A stretch of 64,000 nt of DNA, from assembly GCF_001999765.1 (NCBI RefSeq), contig NZ_KV908323.1:4585-68584 (forward strand), given 5' to 3'. The DNA is from Sinomonas mesophila (lineage in GTDB: Bacteria; Actinomycetota; Actinomycetes; Actinomycetales; Micrococcaceae). Position 1 is the first letter of the stretch, and the number at the start of each line of letters is the position of its first letter. The notes under the pieces are model-generated. The model made no database searches. It was not told the DNA's origin and saw only the letters and a program-made list of their open reading frames with translations. Of this stretch, positions 7,886 through 63,332 are shown piece after piece. The position numbers and the translations under genes are program-made.

Positions 7886-8042
7886 TGTGGAAAAGGTGTG
7901 GAAGAGCGGCCCTTCGTTGTTCGCATCCCCTGTGGATAAGTGTGGATAACTTCTCGATGGCTCGCATAAGTGGCCTTTGACGTGGGAAAACTCCATCGAC
8001 AGCGTGTGGATCAAAGTTTTTTGTCCACAGCGGCAATCCACA
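7886..8042. promoter_or_regulatory. cluster of DnaA boxes upstream of dnaB
   Basis: Two perfect TGTGGATAA boxes lie head-to-tail at 7931-7939 and 7941-7949. Weaker copies are TGTGGAAAA 7886-7894, TGTGGATCA 8005-8013, and, on the other strand, TTGTCCACA 8021-8029 and CAATCCACA 8034-8042. The 468-bp gap (7764-8231) between the divergent dnaB and the L7/L12-like gene holds no ORF of note. A role in DnaA control of dnaB, or in DnaA titration, is inference. Confidence 0.75.
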
Positions 8043-49256: not shown

Positions 49257-49586
49257 ATGAGCAACGCCAAGAACGTCACAGACGCCGAGTTCACTGACAA
49301 GGTGCTTCTCGCCGAGAAGCCGGTCATCGTGGACTTCTGGGCCGAGTGGTGCGGCCCGTGCCGCAAAGTCGGGCCCATTCTCGATGACATTTCGGTTGAG
49401 TACGCGGACCAGGTCGAGGTCGTCAAGGTCGACGTCGACAACAACCCGAACATTGCCGCCGAGTACGGGATCACGTCGATTCCGGCGATCTATTTGTTCG
49501 AAAAGGGCAAGGTCACTGGCACGGTCATTGGCGCACGCCCGAAGCAGTACTTCGAGAAGGAGTGGAGCGAGGTTCTCTCGAAGTAG
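49257..49586 (+). CDS. trxA: thioredoxin
   Basis: 109 residues, the standard size, with the active site WAEWCGPCRKVGP and the cis-proline TSIPAIYLF. It is the substrate of TrxB, 26 bp upstream, and reduces protein disulfides in the cytoplasm. Confidence 0.96.
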   Translation: MSNAKNVTDAEFTDKVLLAEKPVIVDFWAEWCGPCRKVGPILDDISVEYADQVEVVKVDVDNNPNIAAEYGITSIPAIYLFEKGKVTGTVIGARPKQYFEKEWSEVLSK

Positions 49587-49616
49587 CCATGCGCGACTGA
49601 CTTTCGGTCTCGTTGC

Positions 49617-49650
49617 AGGAGGGGAGCGGCTCAGGCCGCTCCCCTCCTTT
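49617..49650 (+). terminator. intrinsic terminator of trxBA
   Basis: A 14-bp perfect stem (AGGAGGGGAGCGGC / GCCGCTCCCCTCCT) with a TCAG loop is followed by TTT. It closes the operon just before the gene-poor domain. Confidence 0.88.
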
Positions 49651-49697
49651 TGTGTCCTCCCAGATTCCCCTCCGCCTCGCAGCATTCGTTTTCGGGT

Positions 49698-49713
49698 TGT
49701 TTCATGTGAAACA
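49698..49713. promoter_or_regulatory. parS site (one mismatch)
   Basis: TGTTTCATGTGAAACA differs from the ParB consensus TGTTTCACGTGAAACA at one central base. It lies 48 bp after the trxA terminator. Confidence 0.8.
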
Positions 49714-49945
49714 GGATTCGAGCGTCCCTGAAGGCAAGTGATTTGGAGTGCATTCCTATATATCCAGAAATTGCCTTGTGATGGCTGGGGCCCTGGGCGC
49801 CAGGACATGCCTTGTTCAATCGGCAGTGCAACAGAGCACACTTGGTATGCGGACGCCAGGCAACACATTATGCCTATCTTGGCTCCCGGAGGGAGGACCC
49901 CTATCGCTATTGCTCCGGGAGGCCAGGCAGCGTGATCCGATCCGA

Positions 49946-49961
49946 TGTTTCACGTGAAACA
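49946..49961. promoter_or_regulatory. parS site (perfect)
   Basis: Exact 16-bp consensus TGTTTCACGTGAAACA, bound by ParB as the nucleation point for chromosome partition complexes. Confidence 0.95.
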
Positions 49962-50690
49962 CATTTGCGGGCTGAAAAACTTGGCTTCTCTCCATTTCCA
50001 GTATCGGCTTCGCGAACACGGACACCCTAGCGACCCTGAGAATCGCCAGATATCAAGGAGCCCGCCAACCGGGCGCGCCACTGCATCGGTGCGCTAGATT
50101 TCTCTCGACCCCGCCGCACGCCTCCCACTAGATGCCACAGTCACTCGAAACGCGAGGGGGGCTCCGTCTCTGCTCCCACAGGGCCCGGCGGCTTTCACAT
50201 AATCTGCGAAGCCCGCCTCCGTGAACCACCGTGAACCCCCGCGCCATCCGCCCTCATGTGCCCAGGAAGCGCGAAGTTCGCGGACTCGCATTCCGAAAGA
50301 CAAACTCCCACGAAGCCAGAACGGACAATGGTGAGGACGTTCGGCAGAGAGCTGACGGCATTCGTCCCCGTACCCATGGTTCGTTGGAATTTCGCCTCTG
50401 CTCGGGATCGGCGCGGAGCGTCCCCGATCGGCCACAAGGGACCTTCATCAGAGACCGTCGGATGCTGCGGGCCTCATCGCCGCGCTGCGCCGCAGCACCG
50501 GAAACAATCCTGAACCAACGGATCAGGCCACGCTCTTCCAACCCCAAATGCATATTTCGAAGCCTGATACCACGTTGCGACCGGACAGAATCAACTGGAG
50601 CCCAGCCGCCCTCCAGACCGATTTGCATGGCGGCCACAAGCTGCACCGGGCGATGAGCTATCACCCGCAGGTAGCCAGCACCCAGGCAGA

Positions 50691-50699
50691 TTATCCACA
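50691..50699 (+). promoter_or_regulatory. perfect DnaA box
   Basis: TTATCCACA, the consensus DnaA box, isolated between parS sites in the gene-poor domain. Confidence 0.8.
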
Positions 50700-51322
50700 G
50701 TTCATTGAGCCCGTCCCACGCAGTTCCTCGACACCTCATTCCTCGACACGCTCGGGCCAAGCGCTCAGGGAGCTTCGGCCGTGCACCCGGCATGTCGGGC
50801 CTCAGGACGATGCAAGAACTCTCGTCGCAATGGCCTGCCCCCTGCGACGCGGCAACCCATCTCGTCGTCTTCCGGGATGTTTTACCCGCCGCGCGTCCAT
50901 GCTCCCTGGACCGGCAGGCCCCCAGGCTACGCGCTTCACTTCGTTGGCCAGAGAAGCTCCTGCGTCCAGAACCTCGACTCACTAGCTCGTCTTTCTTGAC
51001 CGCTGGTCCGATGCCCACACACGGTGCCACCCTCGCCGGTCGACGCGCGGTAAACGCGACTACGTCCGAAGAACGCGTGCCCGCTCGGAATTGGCGCACC
51101 GTCAATGCCGACCCCGGACCCCCGCCCCACGGTCGACGACCGGGGTTCTGACCATCTAGTCGCTAACCCCGAGAACGCGCGTCGGGGCTGGCTGAATTGG
51201 CGGCGCTGCGCATGATCCATGAGTCGGTCCGGGAGCTCGAAGAGCGCCGGGGGCATCCCCGAAGAGTCGGAAGGGAAGGGCATGGTCTCCACGACGGGTC
51301 CCTTGGCGAGATCCAGTGGACA

Positions 51323-51338
51323 TGTTTCACGTGAAACA
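51323..51338. promoter_or_regulatory. parS site (perfect)
   Basis: Exact TGTTTCACGTGAAACA, followed 10 bp later by a second, weaker site, so two ParB clamps could load side by side. Confidence 0.95.
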
Positions 51339-51348
51339 CCATCGACCG

Positions 51349-51364
51349 TGTTTCACGTGAAAAG
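51349..51364. promoter_or_regulatory. parS site (two mismatches)
   Basis: TGTTTCACGTGAAAAG matches the consensus except at the last two bases; tandem partner of the site at 51323. Confidence 0.75.
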
Positions 51365-52053
51365 ATGCCGTTCCATGGTGAGTCGCCTCTCGGAGGCCAG
51401 CCCAGTGGCCGTGACAGTAGAGACTCTCCAGTTCTCATGGCATTGCTTGGAGGGGACTCCGGGGTTCCACCTTGAAGACATGGATTGGAGTCGCCGCGGA
51501 AGTCCGAGCGCGTACCTCTGGGCGCCGAACCCTGCATGATGCTCGTCGACGGCAGCACCGAACGGCCTTCTAGTGAACCGGACCTCCAAGCCTGGACACG
51601 GCTGCCATGGGACTGGTTCCCCCTAGCGTCGAGTCGCATTCCCGTGGGTCGACGCGGCGGCATCTAGGGCGCTGCGCACGTCAGTCGGACGTTGCTCCTC
51701 AAGGACGTTGCTCGTCAATCGCGCGAGTGCTCGACCTTGGGGATCAAGTCCGACCGGCAGCCAGATGCGGGAAGCCATAATCGCGCTCAGGCCAGATGAG
51801 AGAGCGCGTCCTACGCCAGCCATCTAGCGCCGAGGCATGGCACGGTCGCCGGACAGTCTCGCTGGATCGTCCTCATGGGCATGCACCTCCCGTCAGGGCT
51901 TCGGCGTCGTCGGCATGGTACGGCCGGAGTCATGTTCGTCGCCAAATGCCGGGCGCTTGCAGTGGTCCGGTTACCTCCAACGCCACTTCCCGCGCCGCCG
52001 CTGACTCTCCGCGAGACGGGGCAGGATCGGTCTTGGGGCGCCTGGACCAGCCT

Positions 52054-52087
52054 TTGTCCACAGGAGTATCCACAGGACTTATCCACA
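52054..52087 (+). promoter_or_regulatory. DnaA-box array 1
   Basis: TTGTCCACA (52054), GTATCCACA (52066) and TTATCCACA (52079) run in the same orientation at 12-13 bp spacing, about one helical turn, as in initiator-binding arrays. Confidence 0.8.
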
Positions 52088-52445
52088 CTCTTCCCACAGT
52101 CGTCAGGGCGCCGGTTGAGAGTTTTTCCCTCGCAGGTGGCCGGCCGGGCCTCACCGTCAGGACGCAATTTGTGGTGCGGGTCGCGCCTGCAGCGCCGCTC
52201 GCACCCATGTTTAGATCCCGCTGACCACCATCCAGCGCAGACCGAGAGCTTCCGCAGATCGTATGTTGACCGAAATCTGGTGATTGGAGACTGTTAGGTT
52301 CGTCACGCAACTCGCAGATGGTCACAATGCTGGGCGGTGTCCGAAGGCGCCCAGGCGGTGCGCCGACGGGGCGCCACGATGGGCAGTCGCCCGAAGTCGC
52401 TCCGGAGCGTCCTAGGGTCGCTCGCCCAAGTCCGGGGCACTTCCT

Positions 52446-52511
52446 CTATCCACACGGTTATCCACAGGACAGCGAGCGACGGGCTGTTATCTATACACAG
52501 CGTTATCCACA
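52446..52511 (+). promoter_or_regulatory. DnaA-box array 2
   Basis: CTATCCACA (52446), TTATCCACA (52458) and TTATCCACA (52503) share one orientation with array 1; a degenerate CTATACACA is at 52491. Confidence 0.8.
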
Positions 52512-52909
52512 GGCACCATTGGGAGCTGGGGATGTGCAGCTGCATTCAATCCGTCCACCGCGGGGGTGGGTTGGCAGGCCGGCGGACCCCACCCAACGCA
52601 TAGGAACAAGCGCGGCACTGCCACTGACATCGCCTTGCGCCGCCTTCCCACAGCCATGGTGAGGTAGCCTTCCTGCATCTGTCGGGTCGGACCAGGAAGT
52701 CACCTAGGCATCACTCTCCACCACTTGTCGTCTCGGGCCGATCGTCGCACCGTCCGTGGCGGGCACTTGGCCCACAGGGTTCCCACATTGAATTTGGCTT
52801 ACGCCCCAGTCCACTCGCCCACCGAGCGCCTCATGGGGTTCAGCGCTTGGACATGTCCCTTGGTTGCGACGCTCATTCCCTTGGCCTCTGGGAGACCCTC
52901 TCCGGGTCG

Positions 52910-52925
52910 TGTTTCACGTGAAACA
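52910..52925. promoter_or_regulatory. parS site (perfect)
   Basis: Exact TGTTTCACGTGAAACA, about 400 bp past DnaA-box array 2. Confidence 0.95.
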
Positions 52926-53039
52926 CCGCGACTCGAAGCCACCGGATCCTCTGCGATCCTGCAGTCATCGCTCGCCCCCAAGTCATCTGCAGGGAGGGCG
53001 CTGCCACCCAGCTACAATCTGCCCTTCCTCCCCTCATAC

Positions 53040-53093
53040 AAAGAGCCCAGCGGCTCGTTGAGCACCAAAGAGCCCAGCGGCTCGTTGCGCACG
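53040..53093. repeat. 27-bp tandem duplication
   Basis: Two adjacent 27-bp copies, each beginning AAAGAGCCCAGCGGCTCGTT, differ at only two positions. A partial copy (GCCCAGCGGCTC) recurs at 53923. They are in no recognised gene. Confidence 0.8.
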
Positions 53094-53591
53094 AACGTGT
53101 CCCCCAAACAAGTTGACCATCGCCACGACATTCGAGCGGAGTGGGTGCCCCCAGTGGGCCAGCGCTGGAACGGGCTTGGTCGAGACAGAGGGCTCTTGCC
53201 AACGAACTGACTCTGCAGGCGTCCGTGCCGTCGAGGCAGCGGGCCAGGGCGTCGGCGGCCGAGGCCTAGGAGGCACGAATTCCAGGCCGCCATATCTTTG
53301 GCGGCAGTAGATCAGCCAGCTGATTCGGCTGCAGCCCCATCGCTTCCGGGTCACCGCACAGTAGGCAGGATCATGCCACAATGCGGGCCCGGAAATGATC
53401 TGGTCTGGAGGGGCGACGGGAGACCCGCCATGCTTCGAACCATTTGCACTGCCCATGGCACTACTGCCCGCGCGTGGATGTCGCGACGTTCATCGTACAT
53501 CGTGTGCCCAGATGCCTGTGTGCCCGCCAATTTACCGCCGGGGGTCCCGCCGGCACCAAGGGAGTTGTCATCGATTGGAGATCAGGTAGGT

Positions 53592-53630
53592 GTCCTCGAA
53601 GAAGCTGTCATCGAAGAAGGTGTCATCGAA
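53592..53630. repeat. 15-bp tandem repeat
   Basis: GTCCTCGAAGAAGCT, GTCATCGAAGAAGGT and GTCATCGAA follow one another directly. The role is unknown. Confidence 0.75.
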
Positions 53631-54082
53631 CGATTGGCCGAGACGCGGTCCCTGAAAGAAGTGGCGTCGTTCCATCAATCTCGTGTGCATCGCATATGGC
53701 CCGCGCCGTTGGGACAAGCACCGTTCAGCCAGTGCCATGGGTTGGCCTCGCCGCCCCTATTGCGCCATCCTGCATGGCGGCAGCCTGGGCCTGAGAAGCC
53801 ACGTGGGGGACGATCAGCGCGGGGCACCACACCCATAGTCGTGCGCGCTGCCTCTGCCTGATGGCTCGAACCTGGAGAAGGGTTGGGATGCCCCGGTGAA
53901 GAAGCCGCGGAGGAGCAGGATGCCCAGCGGCTCACTGTCGTCACGTCGACCTGCCACCAGGGAGCGTCGAGCCTGGCACTAGGGAAGCAATGCCACAGCT
54001 CAATCAATGTCCTCAGCAGCTCCCGTGGTTCATGACTTTCGCCTGCGGGCTGCACCCGGCATGCGCCCATTCTAAGAGAGTC

Positions 54083-54098
54083 TGTTTCACGTGAAACA
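54083..54098. promoter_or_regulatory. parS site (perfect)
   Basis: Exact TGTTTCACGTGAAACA, about 1 kb from the end of parB. Confidence 0.95.
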
Positions 54099-54842
54099 GC
54101 GTCCCAGGTCCAATGCCAGGCCATGCCGAGTGATCCACTTTGACTTCGGCAGTCAAAATCCCTGCCATTCCAGAATCTCATCATCGCCAATCGATCCGGA
54201 CCATGTCGGAAGCGAGTAACGACAAAGAACCATAGCCGCCGGCCAAGGCGTCCGCAGTCCCCCTTCAGGACTGATTCTTGCCGCCAAGACACAAGCTGCA
54301 AGATCGAGATCCCGCCCCACACGGCTCAGACGATCGATCAGCGCCCCCGAATGCTGACTGCAAGCCGACTTTTGCTCGGCAGTCAAGGCGGCTGGGCGTC
54401 AGCAGGCGTTCCCGGACCAGCGAAACTCGCCTTGCCGCCATGCTTCGCGGCATTCATCAGGAACAATCATCCACCCTGCACGTAGGCGAGTCGCAATTCG
54501 ACCGGACCGCGAGCACCTGTGGCCTTTCCACGGCACGCGGTGTTGGTCGCGCCGCAAAGTGGCGGTGGTTCACCAGGCCAACGGTCGGTCGGCGGCGTAA
54601 CACGCTGTGAGTCGAGTTTCCGGGTCCGTGCCGCAAAGGGGACCCAATCAAGTGCAGTTCATGATCTGCGATTGCCATCCTCACCGCGCCTCGCACGAGG
54701 GATCCGGCACCCGAGGGGCTGAGACCGGAACGAAGGACTCGGGCCAGGAGAGGTGGACTCAGACCAGAGACTCAAAAACGGCAAACGGCTCCGGGCGGAA
54801 TGGGACCTTGGAGCGGTTGAAGTCATGCGCGTCCTTACGCCG

Positions 54843-54865
54843 ACGTCTCCTGCGGAGACGTTTCT
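54843..54865 (+). terminator. orphan terminator-like hairpin
   Basis: An 8-bp perfect stem (ACGTCTCC / GGAGACGT) with a TGC loop, followed by TTTCT. No recognisable gene ends here on the plus strand, so it may end an uncharacterised RNA. Confidence 0.45.
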
Positions 54866-55005
54866 CCATGGTCGGACGCGGTGGAACTCAGCATCGCCAG
54901 GAGAATCAATGCGATCGGTGAAGGAGATTCGCTGCCTTCACGCTCGTCTGTAAGCGACGTGATGCGTTTGGACGCAGTCCCAGAAGGCGCAGCCCAAGAA
55001 AAAAT

Positions 55006-55037
55006 GCGGGCATCGTTTCACGTGAAACGATGCCCGC
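55006..55037 (-). terminator. parAB terminator containing a parS site
   Basis: A perfect 32-bp palindrome, the sequence GCGGGCATCGTTTCAC and its reverse complement, lies 48 bp past the parB stop. On the minus strand it runs into ATTTTTTCTTGGG, an intrinsic terminator. Its centre (55014-55029) is CGTTTCACGTGAAACG, the parS core with only the two end bases changed. Confidence 0.85.
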
Positions 55038-55084
55038 CGGATGCGCTCATGCGCGATGTCGCGTCACCCCACGAATCGAGCGAT

Positions 55085-56302
55085 CTACTCCTCGTCGGGG
55101 CTGATGAGCGACATGATGCGGTTGAGATCCTCGACCGAGGCGAACTCGATGCTGACCTTTCCCTTGCGCGCACCAAGCGTGATCTTGACGTTCGTGTCGA
55201 GGCGGTCGGCGAGGCTCGACGCCAGGAAATCCAGTCGCTCGTGCCGCGCATTGGGCCGGGGAGCGTTCCGACGCGGCTCCTGCGGCTCCTGATACAGCGC
55301 GACGGCCTCCTCCGTGCCGCGCACGGACAGCCCCTCGGCGATGATCTTCTGCGCCATGCGCTCGATGGCGGCGTCGTCCGGGAGAGACAGGAGCGCCCGG
55401 GCGTGGCCCGCAGTGATGACGCCTGCCGCCACGCGGCGCTGCACGAGCGGAGGCAGCCGCAGGAGGCGGATCGTGTTCGAGACCTGCGGACGCGACCGTC
55501 CGATCCTGTCCGCGAGCTCCTCGTGGGTCGCACCGAAATCCTCGAGCAGCTGCTGATAGGCAGCCGCCTCTTCCAGCGGGTTCAGCTGGCTGCGGTGCAG
55601 GTTCTCGAGCAGAGCGTCGCGCAGGAGCGCGTCGTCTCCGGTGTCCCTGATGATCGCTGGGATGGTCTCCAGGCCGGCCTCGCGAGTAGCCCGCCAGCGG
55701 CGCTCACCCATCACGAGCTCGTATGGCTCGCTACCGGATTCCGTTGACTTGCGGACGACGATCGGCTGGAGAACGCCAATCTCGCGCACGGAGTGGACGA
55801 GCTCCGCCATCTCCTCCTCGTCGAAGACGGAGCGCGGCTGGCGGCGGTTGGGGTGGATGTCGGCGACGCTCAGCTCCGCGAACTGAGCGCCCGGCACCTC
55901 GACCAGGTCGAGGTTGTCGCCGTCAACCGCGGGGGCGGCCGAACGGCTCTTGGCTGCAGCAGGCTTCCTCTTGGCGGGTGCCGGCTGGCCCCCGGCGTCG
56001 CCCCCCGTGGACTCCTCCTCGCCCACCGGAGTGTCCTCGGAGACGGCACCAGTCTCGGGGGCATCGGTCGCCGGCCTGGCGGGAGCCTCGGCGCCGGCAC
56101 CGACCACCGCTGCCGCGGTGGACTGAGACTCCGCCGCCTCCCCAGCGGACGCATTCGGCGCATCCTGCGTCCCGCGCTGGCCGGAGTCAGGGAAGAAGAG
56201 ATCCACGGGGCGCGACGAGGTCGCGGTGCTGCCTGCTGCCGGAGCAGTGCTGGGGATGAGGGCGCCCAGCCCCCGCCCCAGTCCTCGGCGCTTCTCGCTC
56301 AT
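55085..56302 (-). CDS. parB: chromosome partitioning protein ParB
   Basis: 405 residues. The N-terminus [14 protein letters not shown] is the ParA-contact helix. A long acidic/Ala-rich linker (about 20-140) follows, then the CTP-binding domain with PNRRQPR and [12 protein letters not shown] (about 195-205), and the helix-turn-helix [27 protein letters not shown] that reads parS. A C-terminal dimer domain ends the protein. It forms CTP-gated clamps spreading from the parS sites listed here. Confidence 0.96.
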
Positions 56303-56387: not shown

Positions 56388-57275
56388 TCAGCGCTCTGCG
56401 ATCTCCGCCGCGGCCTCGAGGTATGAGAGCGCGCCCGTCGACGACGGATCGTAGGTCATGACGGTCTGCTGGTAGCTCGGCGCCTCCGAGATCCTCACAG
56501 ACCGGGGAACCACCGCCTCGAGGACCTGCTGCGGGAAGTGCTCCCGTACCTCGGCAGCGACCTGCGCCGCGAGGTTGGTCCGGCCGTCGTACATCGTCAG
56601 GAGGATCGTCGAGACACGCAGATCCGAGTTGAGGTGCTTCTGGATCATCTCGATGTTCTTCAGCAGCTGGCTCAGCCCCTCGAGCGCGTAGTACTCGCAC
56701 TGGATCGGTATTAGGACCTCGGTCGCCGCGCAGAACGCGTTGACCGTGAGCAGCCCCAGGCTGGGCGGGCAGTCGATGAAGATGTAGTCGAGGCGCGGCT
56801 GGCCCTCGGCCTCGCGCTTCTTTGCGTAGTTTTCGATGGCCCGGCGCAGACGCTGCTCGCGGGCCACGAGAGAGACCAGCTCGATCTCCGCGCCCGCAAG
56901 GTGGATGGTCGCGGGAGCGCACTCGAGATTGGCCACATCGGGGCACGGCCCCACAACGTCAGCCAGGGCGACGTCGTTGATGAGCACGTCGTAGATGCTC
57001 TCGACATCCGCGTGGTGCTCGATGCCCAGGGCCGTAGAAGCATTGCCCTGCGGGTCGATGTCGATGACGAGCACGTTGAGGCCCGCGGAGGCCAGGGCCG
57101 CGGCGATGTTGACGGTTGTCGTCGTCTTGCCCACGCCGCCCTTCTGGTTGGAGACCGTGAACACCCGGGTCTCCTCGGGCCGGGGAAGCTCGCGGTCGCG
57201 GAGACGCTCGCGCCGCCGTGCCTCGTTTGCGAGCTGGCTCGCGATCGGGCTGCCGTCATCCATCGCGTCGAGCAC
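56388..57275 (-). CDS. parA: chromosome partitioning ATPase ParA
   Basis: 295 residues with the deviant Walker A motif SNQKGGVGKTTTTVN, IDIDPQGNASTAL (A') and YIFIDCPPSLG (Walker B). It segregates origins by forming a gradient to which ParB-parS complexes bind. The GTG at 57275 has GAGGGGAG 5-6 bp upstream and is preferred. The same frame is open to a GTG at 57437, which would add 54 residues, part of them (VSRET) encoded by a parS site. parB starts 85 bp downstream. Confidence 0.93.
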   Translation of the reverse strand: MLDAMDDGSPIASQLANEARRRERLRDRELPRPEETRVFTVSNQKGGVGKTTTTVNIAAALASAGLNVLVIDIDPQGNASTALGIEHHADVESIYDVLINDVALADVVGPCPDVANLECAPATIHLAGAEIELVSLVAREQRLRRAIENYAKKREAEGQPRLDYIFIDCPPSLGLLTVNAFCAATEVLIPIQCEYYALEGLSQLLKNIEMIQKHLNSDLRVSTILLTMYDGRTNLAAQVAAEVREHFPQQVLEAVVPRSVRISEAPSYQQTVMTYDPSSTGALSYLEAAAEIAER

Positions 57276-57296
57276 CGTGACTCCCCTCGGATTGGT

Positions 57297-57312
57297 TGTT
57301 TCACGTGAAACG
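57297..57312. promoter_or_regulatory. parS site upstream of parA
   Basis: TGTTTCACGTGAAACG, one mismatch from consensus, 22 bp before the preferred parA start, where bound ParB could autoregulate parAB. Confidence 0.85.
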
Positions 57313-57510
57313 GAACCAGCCTGATCAATCGCGGAAGGTTGAGCACCCAGACCGGCGCCCCCGAAGACCGCCGAGCGCGCAGAGCCGAGTGTCAGAAATG
57401 GGGGAATCCTCTGGGCTGGCGTCTCGCCATTGCTCACTGTTCACTCACTCTCGCCTTGCGTCGGATGCCTCCCTCTAGACTACCGGCTGACGCCGCCCCC
57501 TCCGGGGAGC

Positions 57511-62705: not shown

Positions 62706-63332
62706 GCCGACGCCCGCAGCAGGGCCGACGGCGGGTGTGGGCAGGGGACGAAAGCACGAGTCCCCGCGCACCCGCACCTTATTAACAGCCAGTTGTGGAC
62801 AAGCCTGTGGACGGTTAAGTGCACATCGGCCGTCCAGGGGCTTAAAACCCCCTCGGCGGCTGTGGAGACCACGAATGACACGAACCCTGCCCTCCACAGC
62901 CGGGCCCCTACTCGTCCGCAGCCGATCAACACGCCGTGAACACCCTGCATCCGCGCCAGCGCTGGTCGCGAGGCGGTTTTCCACAGTTTCCACAGCAGTT
63001 ATTAACACCACGAATCCCAAGAAATCCGAGGATCCCTGAACAACAGTCACCCTCCGGGCCCGCAGCACGCCACCCTGGCTCCATGACCGAACCACAGCGC
63101 GACCGCAACGGGCCCGGCCGTGCCGGCCGCCCGCCGTCGTCCGCCATCCCCGGCCCCTCGCCCTCCCCAGACCAGCCGTTGAACTCGTCTCGGCACATGG
63201 GGCTAAGCTGTGGTCAGCGTTCCGGGGACTCCTTCCTCTGACTTCATGTGATTTCCTGTGATTCCCGGACCGCGGCCTGCACCGCGCCCCCGGGCGCCTC
63301 GAGAAGACTGCGATGAAAGGCGGATCACCTCC
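62706..63332. other. dnaA-dnaN intergenic region, candidate oriC
   Basis: 627 bp with DnaA-box-like sequences TGTGGACAA 62794-62802, TGTGGACGG 62806-62814, TGTGGAGAC 62861, TTTTCCACA 62977-62985 and GTTTCCACA 62986-62994. Two identical A/T-rich TTATTAACA motifs (62779-62787, 62999-63007) flank most of them and could unwind. The position is the classic origin place in actinobacteria, although the boxes deviate from consensus. No gene is seen. Confidence 0.65.

Follow-up and report, generated by a model that had tools for sequence, protein, structure and literature searches.

A gene-free parS domain carrying paired DnaA-box arrays beside parAB in Sinomonas and related genera

Initiator-binding sites near origins and centromeres

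Clusters of multiple parS sites near oriC and parAB are a known feature of Actinobacteria, and the locus described here shares it. In Bacillus and Streptomyces, clusters of DnaA boxes restrain or tune initiation. The datA and DARS loci of Escherichia coli also restrain or tune initiation (PMC4585315). All of these, like the Sinomonas-clade locus, are non-coding box clusters outside oriC, whereas the Sinomonas-clade arrays are embedded among parS sites and are clade-specific, and the likeness is one of sequence layout. In Caulobacter crescentus, binding of DnaA at the parS centromere starts partitioning (Mera et al. 2014, described in the review PMC6399470). There, as here, DnaA boxes lie in a ParB centromere near oriC, and in Caulobacter they link the initiator to segregation. 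The Sinomonas clade, a group of Actinobacteria known in this respect from its sequences, differs in having two phased, one-strand arrays ~340 bp apart in a multi-kilobase gene-free parS domain. The rctA/parS2 region of Vibrio cholerae chromosome II is a centromere locus that also binds an initiator and titrates it from the nearby origin (PMC6399470), which resembles the role proposed below; however, the Vibrio initiator is RctB, not DnaA, the chromosome is a secondary one, and the resemblance would be convergent at best. The bipartite oriC of Bacillus and Helicobacter likewise has two DnaA-box clusters with a spacer between them (PMC4285127), but that spacer is usually the dnaA gene, and the Sinomonas clade has a separate conserved oriC at dnaA-dnaN. 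A search of the available literature on parS or DnaA in Arthrobacter found nothing relevant.

A gene-free interval and its parS sites

The window analysed here is a stretch of 64,000 nucleotides from Sinomonas mesophila, in which 5.5 kb without a recognisable gene separates the trxA stop (49586) from the parB stop (55085) (Table 1). Coding DNA of this high-GC genome is marked by strong 3-base GC periodicity. The spread of this periodicity in the interval is 0.075, compared with 0.071 for random sequence and a mean of 0.364 for the rest of the window. The non-periodic run at the interval is the longest in the window at 5.6 kb, the runner-up being 1.1 kb; G007, a complete relative, has a corresponding run of 4.4 kb, and the second-longest run in 400 kb there has a third of that length. 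GC content falls to 62%, against 70.6% for the window. Decayed genes were rejected on the absence of periodicity, of Pfam families among ten of the longer open reading frames, and of plasmid similarity for the segment; an RNA gene was rejected on an Rfam search over the whole window that returned no match. The initial annotation had described a stretch without recognisable genes and with a shifted base composition, and both descriptions hold; the pseudogene or protein matches that it had proposed looking for did not appear. Its coordinates (49653-55005) marked a real region but were slightly short, the true interval being 49587-55084.

The parS motif TGTTTCACGTGAAACA occurs eight times in the window with at most two mismatches, where 0.03 copies are expected. 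Seven copies lie within 49587–55084, six of them in 49653-55005 as originally counted, and the two that had been assigned to the parAB locus were found at 55014, by the parB stop, and at 57297, inside parA. A genome-wide scan (14-mer, at most one mismatch; 4.0 Mb, 99.98% complete) returned the same eight sites as every copy, which places the entire parS complement of the genome within 7.6 kb beside parAB, the arrangement of a ParABS centromere. Exact parS copies among the matches listed form one cluster of ~8 kb or less in 16 of 16 Sinomonas genomes. The segment is the predicted centromere of the chromosome, with ParB occupancy predicted from these sites. The copy within parA falls in the 5' part of the gene, where it reads as VSRET, and a parS in the matching place is kept in many relatives.

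The parB-adjacent parS is part of a terminator-like hairpin (z = -4.3). Among the window site and its counterparts in relatives, the palindrome is extended by at least 4 bp in 28 of 35 cases, with differing arm sequences, and 13 of these parB-adjacent sites have a T tract as well; other parS sites have an extended palindrome in just 17 of 463 cases. A search of the literature for a parS-terminator hairpin found no paper describing one. Since the parS beside parB so often has an extended palindrome, one site may serve both ParB binding and the ending of the parB transcript.

Table 1. Coordinates of features in and around the trxA-parB interval
Feature	Position	Strand	Remarks
trxA	49257..49586	+	left border of domain
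Gene-free domain (predicted centromere)	49587..55084	.	between convergent trxA and parB; no codon periodicity, no Pfam match
parS	49698..49713	.	1 mismatch (TGTTTCATGTGAAACA)
parS	49946..49961	.	perfect
Lone DnaA box	50691..50699	+	TTATCCACA; outside both arrays
parS	51323..51338	.	perfect
parS	51349..51364	.	2 mismatches; 26 bp from parS at 51323
DnaA array A	52054..52087	+	TTGTCCACA, GTATCCACA, TTATCCACA; spacing 12 and 13 bp; arrangement conserved
Moderately AT-rich stretch	52231..52316	.	midway between arrays; 46% AT vs 38% for interval, a modest effect at a position picked after inspection
DnaA array B	52446..52511	+	CTATCCACA and TTATCCACA 12 bp apart, then CTATACACA site, TTATCCACA; arrangement conserved
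parS	52910..52925	.	perfect
parS	54083..54098	.	perfect
Terminator-like hairpin of parB	55006..55037	-	upper stem is parS 55014-55029, then T tract
parS	55014-55029		in upper stem of parB hairpin; just downstream of parB
parB	55085..56302	-	homologues present in named genomes
parA	56388..57437	-	with intragenic parS
parS	57297-57312		within parA
dnaA-dnaN intergenic region	62706..63330	.	presumed conventional oriC; opposed DnaA boxes and AT peak

Paired DnaA-box arrays and their geometry in relatives

When no more than one mismatch is allowed, the interval contains seven DnaA boxes (50691, 52054, 52066, 52079, 52446, 52458 and 52503), all on the + strand, the number of DnaA-box-like motifs first reported; simulated sequence gave a mean of 0.42 and a maximum of 3. 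Perfect TTATCCACA has 22 copies genome-wide, four of which are inside the interval. What goes beyond the earlier description is that six of the seven boxes are grouped as two compact phased arrays, A and B, in an arrangement conserved across species. In array B, the degenerate site CTATACACA is located between the boxes at 52458 and 52503. Seven boxes, six of them in two arrays, apart from dnaA-dnaN, constitute a DnaA-box cluster outside oriC. Such boxes might regulate promoters of trxA, parB or a small RNA, and DnaA boxes are found upstream of dnaB too in the S. mesophila genome. However, trxA and parB both end toward the interval, the arrays are more than 2 kb from either gene, and the interval carries no Rfam family or coding signal, which makes DnaA-regulated promoters quite improbable.

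The arrangement was compared across 33 box-bearing trxA-parB intervals, 12 from Sinomonas (including the window) and 21 from Arthrobacter, Pseudarthrobacter and Paenarthrobacter. These intervals are 3.1-9.2 kb long, usually 4-7 kb, and mostly non-coding. Alignment-free word enrichment found only parS and TTATCCACA, with their extensions, to be strongly enriched; TTATCCACA was observed 77 times (0.5 expected) and is present in all 33 genomes, and TATCCACA occurs 114 times on one strand versus twice on the other. In 31 of the 33 intervals, two box clusters lie 342±26 bp apart (range 297-389). Box-to-box gaps inside clusters measure 12 or 13 bp in 61 of 102 cases, and the first array is located at 0.38-0.64 of the interval length. 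The two exceptions are L002, where the insertion of a transposase-like gene has set the arrays 1.8 kb apart, and L009, where the second array is degenerate. Six genomes that had no part in defining the pattern, among them one of a further genus and some that may be close kin of earlier ones, all have the array pair (6/6). The two-array layout is present in 37 of 39 genomes, comprising all 16 Sinomonas species in the set, Arthrobacter, Pseudarthrobacter, Paenarthrobacter and the one further genus. A modestly AT-rich middle is seen on average in the Sinomonas group and in the Arthrobacter group; no shared motif was found within the middles of both groups, which bears on a datA-like, IHF-type bend site. 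Insertions of transposase-like genes into the spacer were observed in L002 and L086.

Between sister species whose proteins are 89-97% identical and whose fourfold sites are 40-65% identical, 1-6% of the interval can be aligned, compared with 95-99% of the dnaA-dnaN region (pairs with both regions). This drift is what is expected of unconstrained DNA at such distance; the sites and their geometry persist regardless. The comparison of Sinomonas and Arthrobacter intervals that the initial annotation had proposed shows sites that stay in place while the remainder drifts, and the dedicated long non-coding segment combining parS sites with DnaA boxes is borne out as conserved and lineage-specific. 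The domain might still be a relic of an earlier intergenic expansion, in which parS sites piled up and boxes survive by chance, in keeping with a spacer that tolerates transposase insertions and evolves freely. This reading is contradicted by box strand, phase, pair distance and mid-position, which persist in 37 of 39 genomes between unalignable flanks, and its probability is close to nil. The anatomy of the domain, parS sites with paired arrays, is practically certain.

In a tree built from ParA, ParB, DnaA and GidB by a quick search, array-bearing rows form one clade of 35 (SH-aLRT 99), in which two rows without a readable trxA border likewise have boxes at the right place. Rows outside the clade have no boxes in the interval, and several retain a parS-rich, largely non-coding spacer; Arthrobacter koreensis is one relative without the array pair. 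In the other Micrococcales families sampled, most parS sites lie on the side of parB that faces oriC, and few or none are found downstream. Because the arrays are confined to one clade and the parS spacer is found outside it too, the distribution is consistent with one gain of the arrays on an older parS-rich spacer; the counts alone are compatible with losses too.

The position of the arrays relative to parS differs between groups. In the Arthrobacter group, a parS is located 88-132 bp before array B in 16 of 19 genomes and 91-114 bp after it in three, while in Sinomonas the nearest parS is more than 150 bp from the arrays, which means that close contact between ParB and DnaA is not a general feature. 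Tandem-box matches across the 16 Sinomonas genomes all lie inside the parS cluster (13/13). Restriction of tandem boxes to the centromere holds for these 16 genomes; family-wide they are also found at dnaA-dnaN, dnaB and other loci. The distances between arrays and parS bear on a segregation trigger, in which DnaA bound at the centromere would start or license ParABS movement with little effect on initiation. The central placement of the arrays among the parS sites, the parS close to array B in 16 of 19 Arthrobacter-group genomes, and the start of Caulobacter partitioning with DnaA at parS (Mera 2014, described in PMC6399470) speak for such a trigger. However, the Sinomonas arrays lack a nearby parS, and the description of the Caulobacter site consulted in PMC6399470 does not give it a phased two-array structure; a segregation trigger appears possible but rather unlikely.

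Relation to oriC and possible roles

Oppositely oriented DnaA boxes at a distance of ~182 bp are found in the dnaA-dnaN region together with an AT peak, a layout common to relatives with and without arrays; the window's own copy has just two near-consensus boxes. In the Arthrobacter group the AT peak reaches 0.66 at dnaA-dnaN versus 0.49 between the arrays, and no conserved sequence was found between the arrays. An oriC combines boxes with a strongly AT-rich conserved unwinding element, a description that dnaA-dnaN fits better than the arrays, which have no such element. In G007, a complete relative, GC skew near the locus was too weak to locate the origin within ~10 kb. A replication origin, either additional or displaced, might nevertheless lie here, with DnaA loaded at the arrays and unwinding in the AT-rich middle, since two arrays flank an AT-rich stretch and bipartite origins are known (PMC4285127). 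This is improbable, given that dnaA-dnaN retains the conserved layout and the stronger AT peak, that the inter-array sequence is not conserved, and that an unwinding element is reportedly never found inside a cluster (PMC4285127). Because a conserved conventional oriC remains at dnaA-dnaN, the segment is probably not an origin; a site at which DnaA binds for regulation or segregation is more likely. The initial proposal of a segregation/initiation domain stands as to a distinct domain and is weakened as to initiation, on the same ground.

DnaA boxes were also observed at other loci. A cluster at 7886-8029, just upstream of dnaB, has two perfect TTATCCACA copies 10 bp apart plus weaker ones, and in another genus L146 has triple tandem boxes beside dnaB. 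L092 and L093 (G000 contig 3, 83.6-86.6 kb) contain several DnaA boxes ~16-19 kb on the other side of dnaA, and genome G031 has a tandem array (L147) ~14 kb from its dnaA-dnaN array.

The most likely role of the domain, with about an even chance, is that of a regulatory platform for DnaA binding, close to the origin and inside a ParB centromere; DnaA at Caulobacter parS and loci such as datA are its precedents. DnaA would fill both arrays as short cooperative oligomers on same-strand boxes phased at 12-13 bp, and the filled arrays would perhaps pair across the intervening loop. The locus should double right after initiation because it is ~9 kb from oriC. It would most likely hold oriC in check by binding or inactivating DnaA, in a datA-like or titration-like manner, and DnaA at the arrays would be in contact with the ParB complex covering the same DNA. 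We infer that the layout is most simply explained by a DnaA sink near oriC that is copied shortly after initiation, with the segregation trigger as the main rival to this reading. More tentatively, the paired arrays inside the ParB complex could act as one lineage-specific switch, in which centromere release and origin restraint would both depend on the level or ATP state of DnaA, although we consider this unlikely.

It has long been asked how bacteria coordinate the copying of their chromosomes with the separation of the copies, and the evidence comes mostly from a few model species. In this lineage, ~5 kb is kept clear of everything but ParB and DnaA sites, in a fixed geometry across several genera. 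Because the domain is gene-free, a clean deletion of the element could leave every gene intact, and close relatives with the parS spacer but without the arrays provide a natural control. The layout suggests a built-in link between copying the chromosome and separating it.
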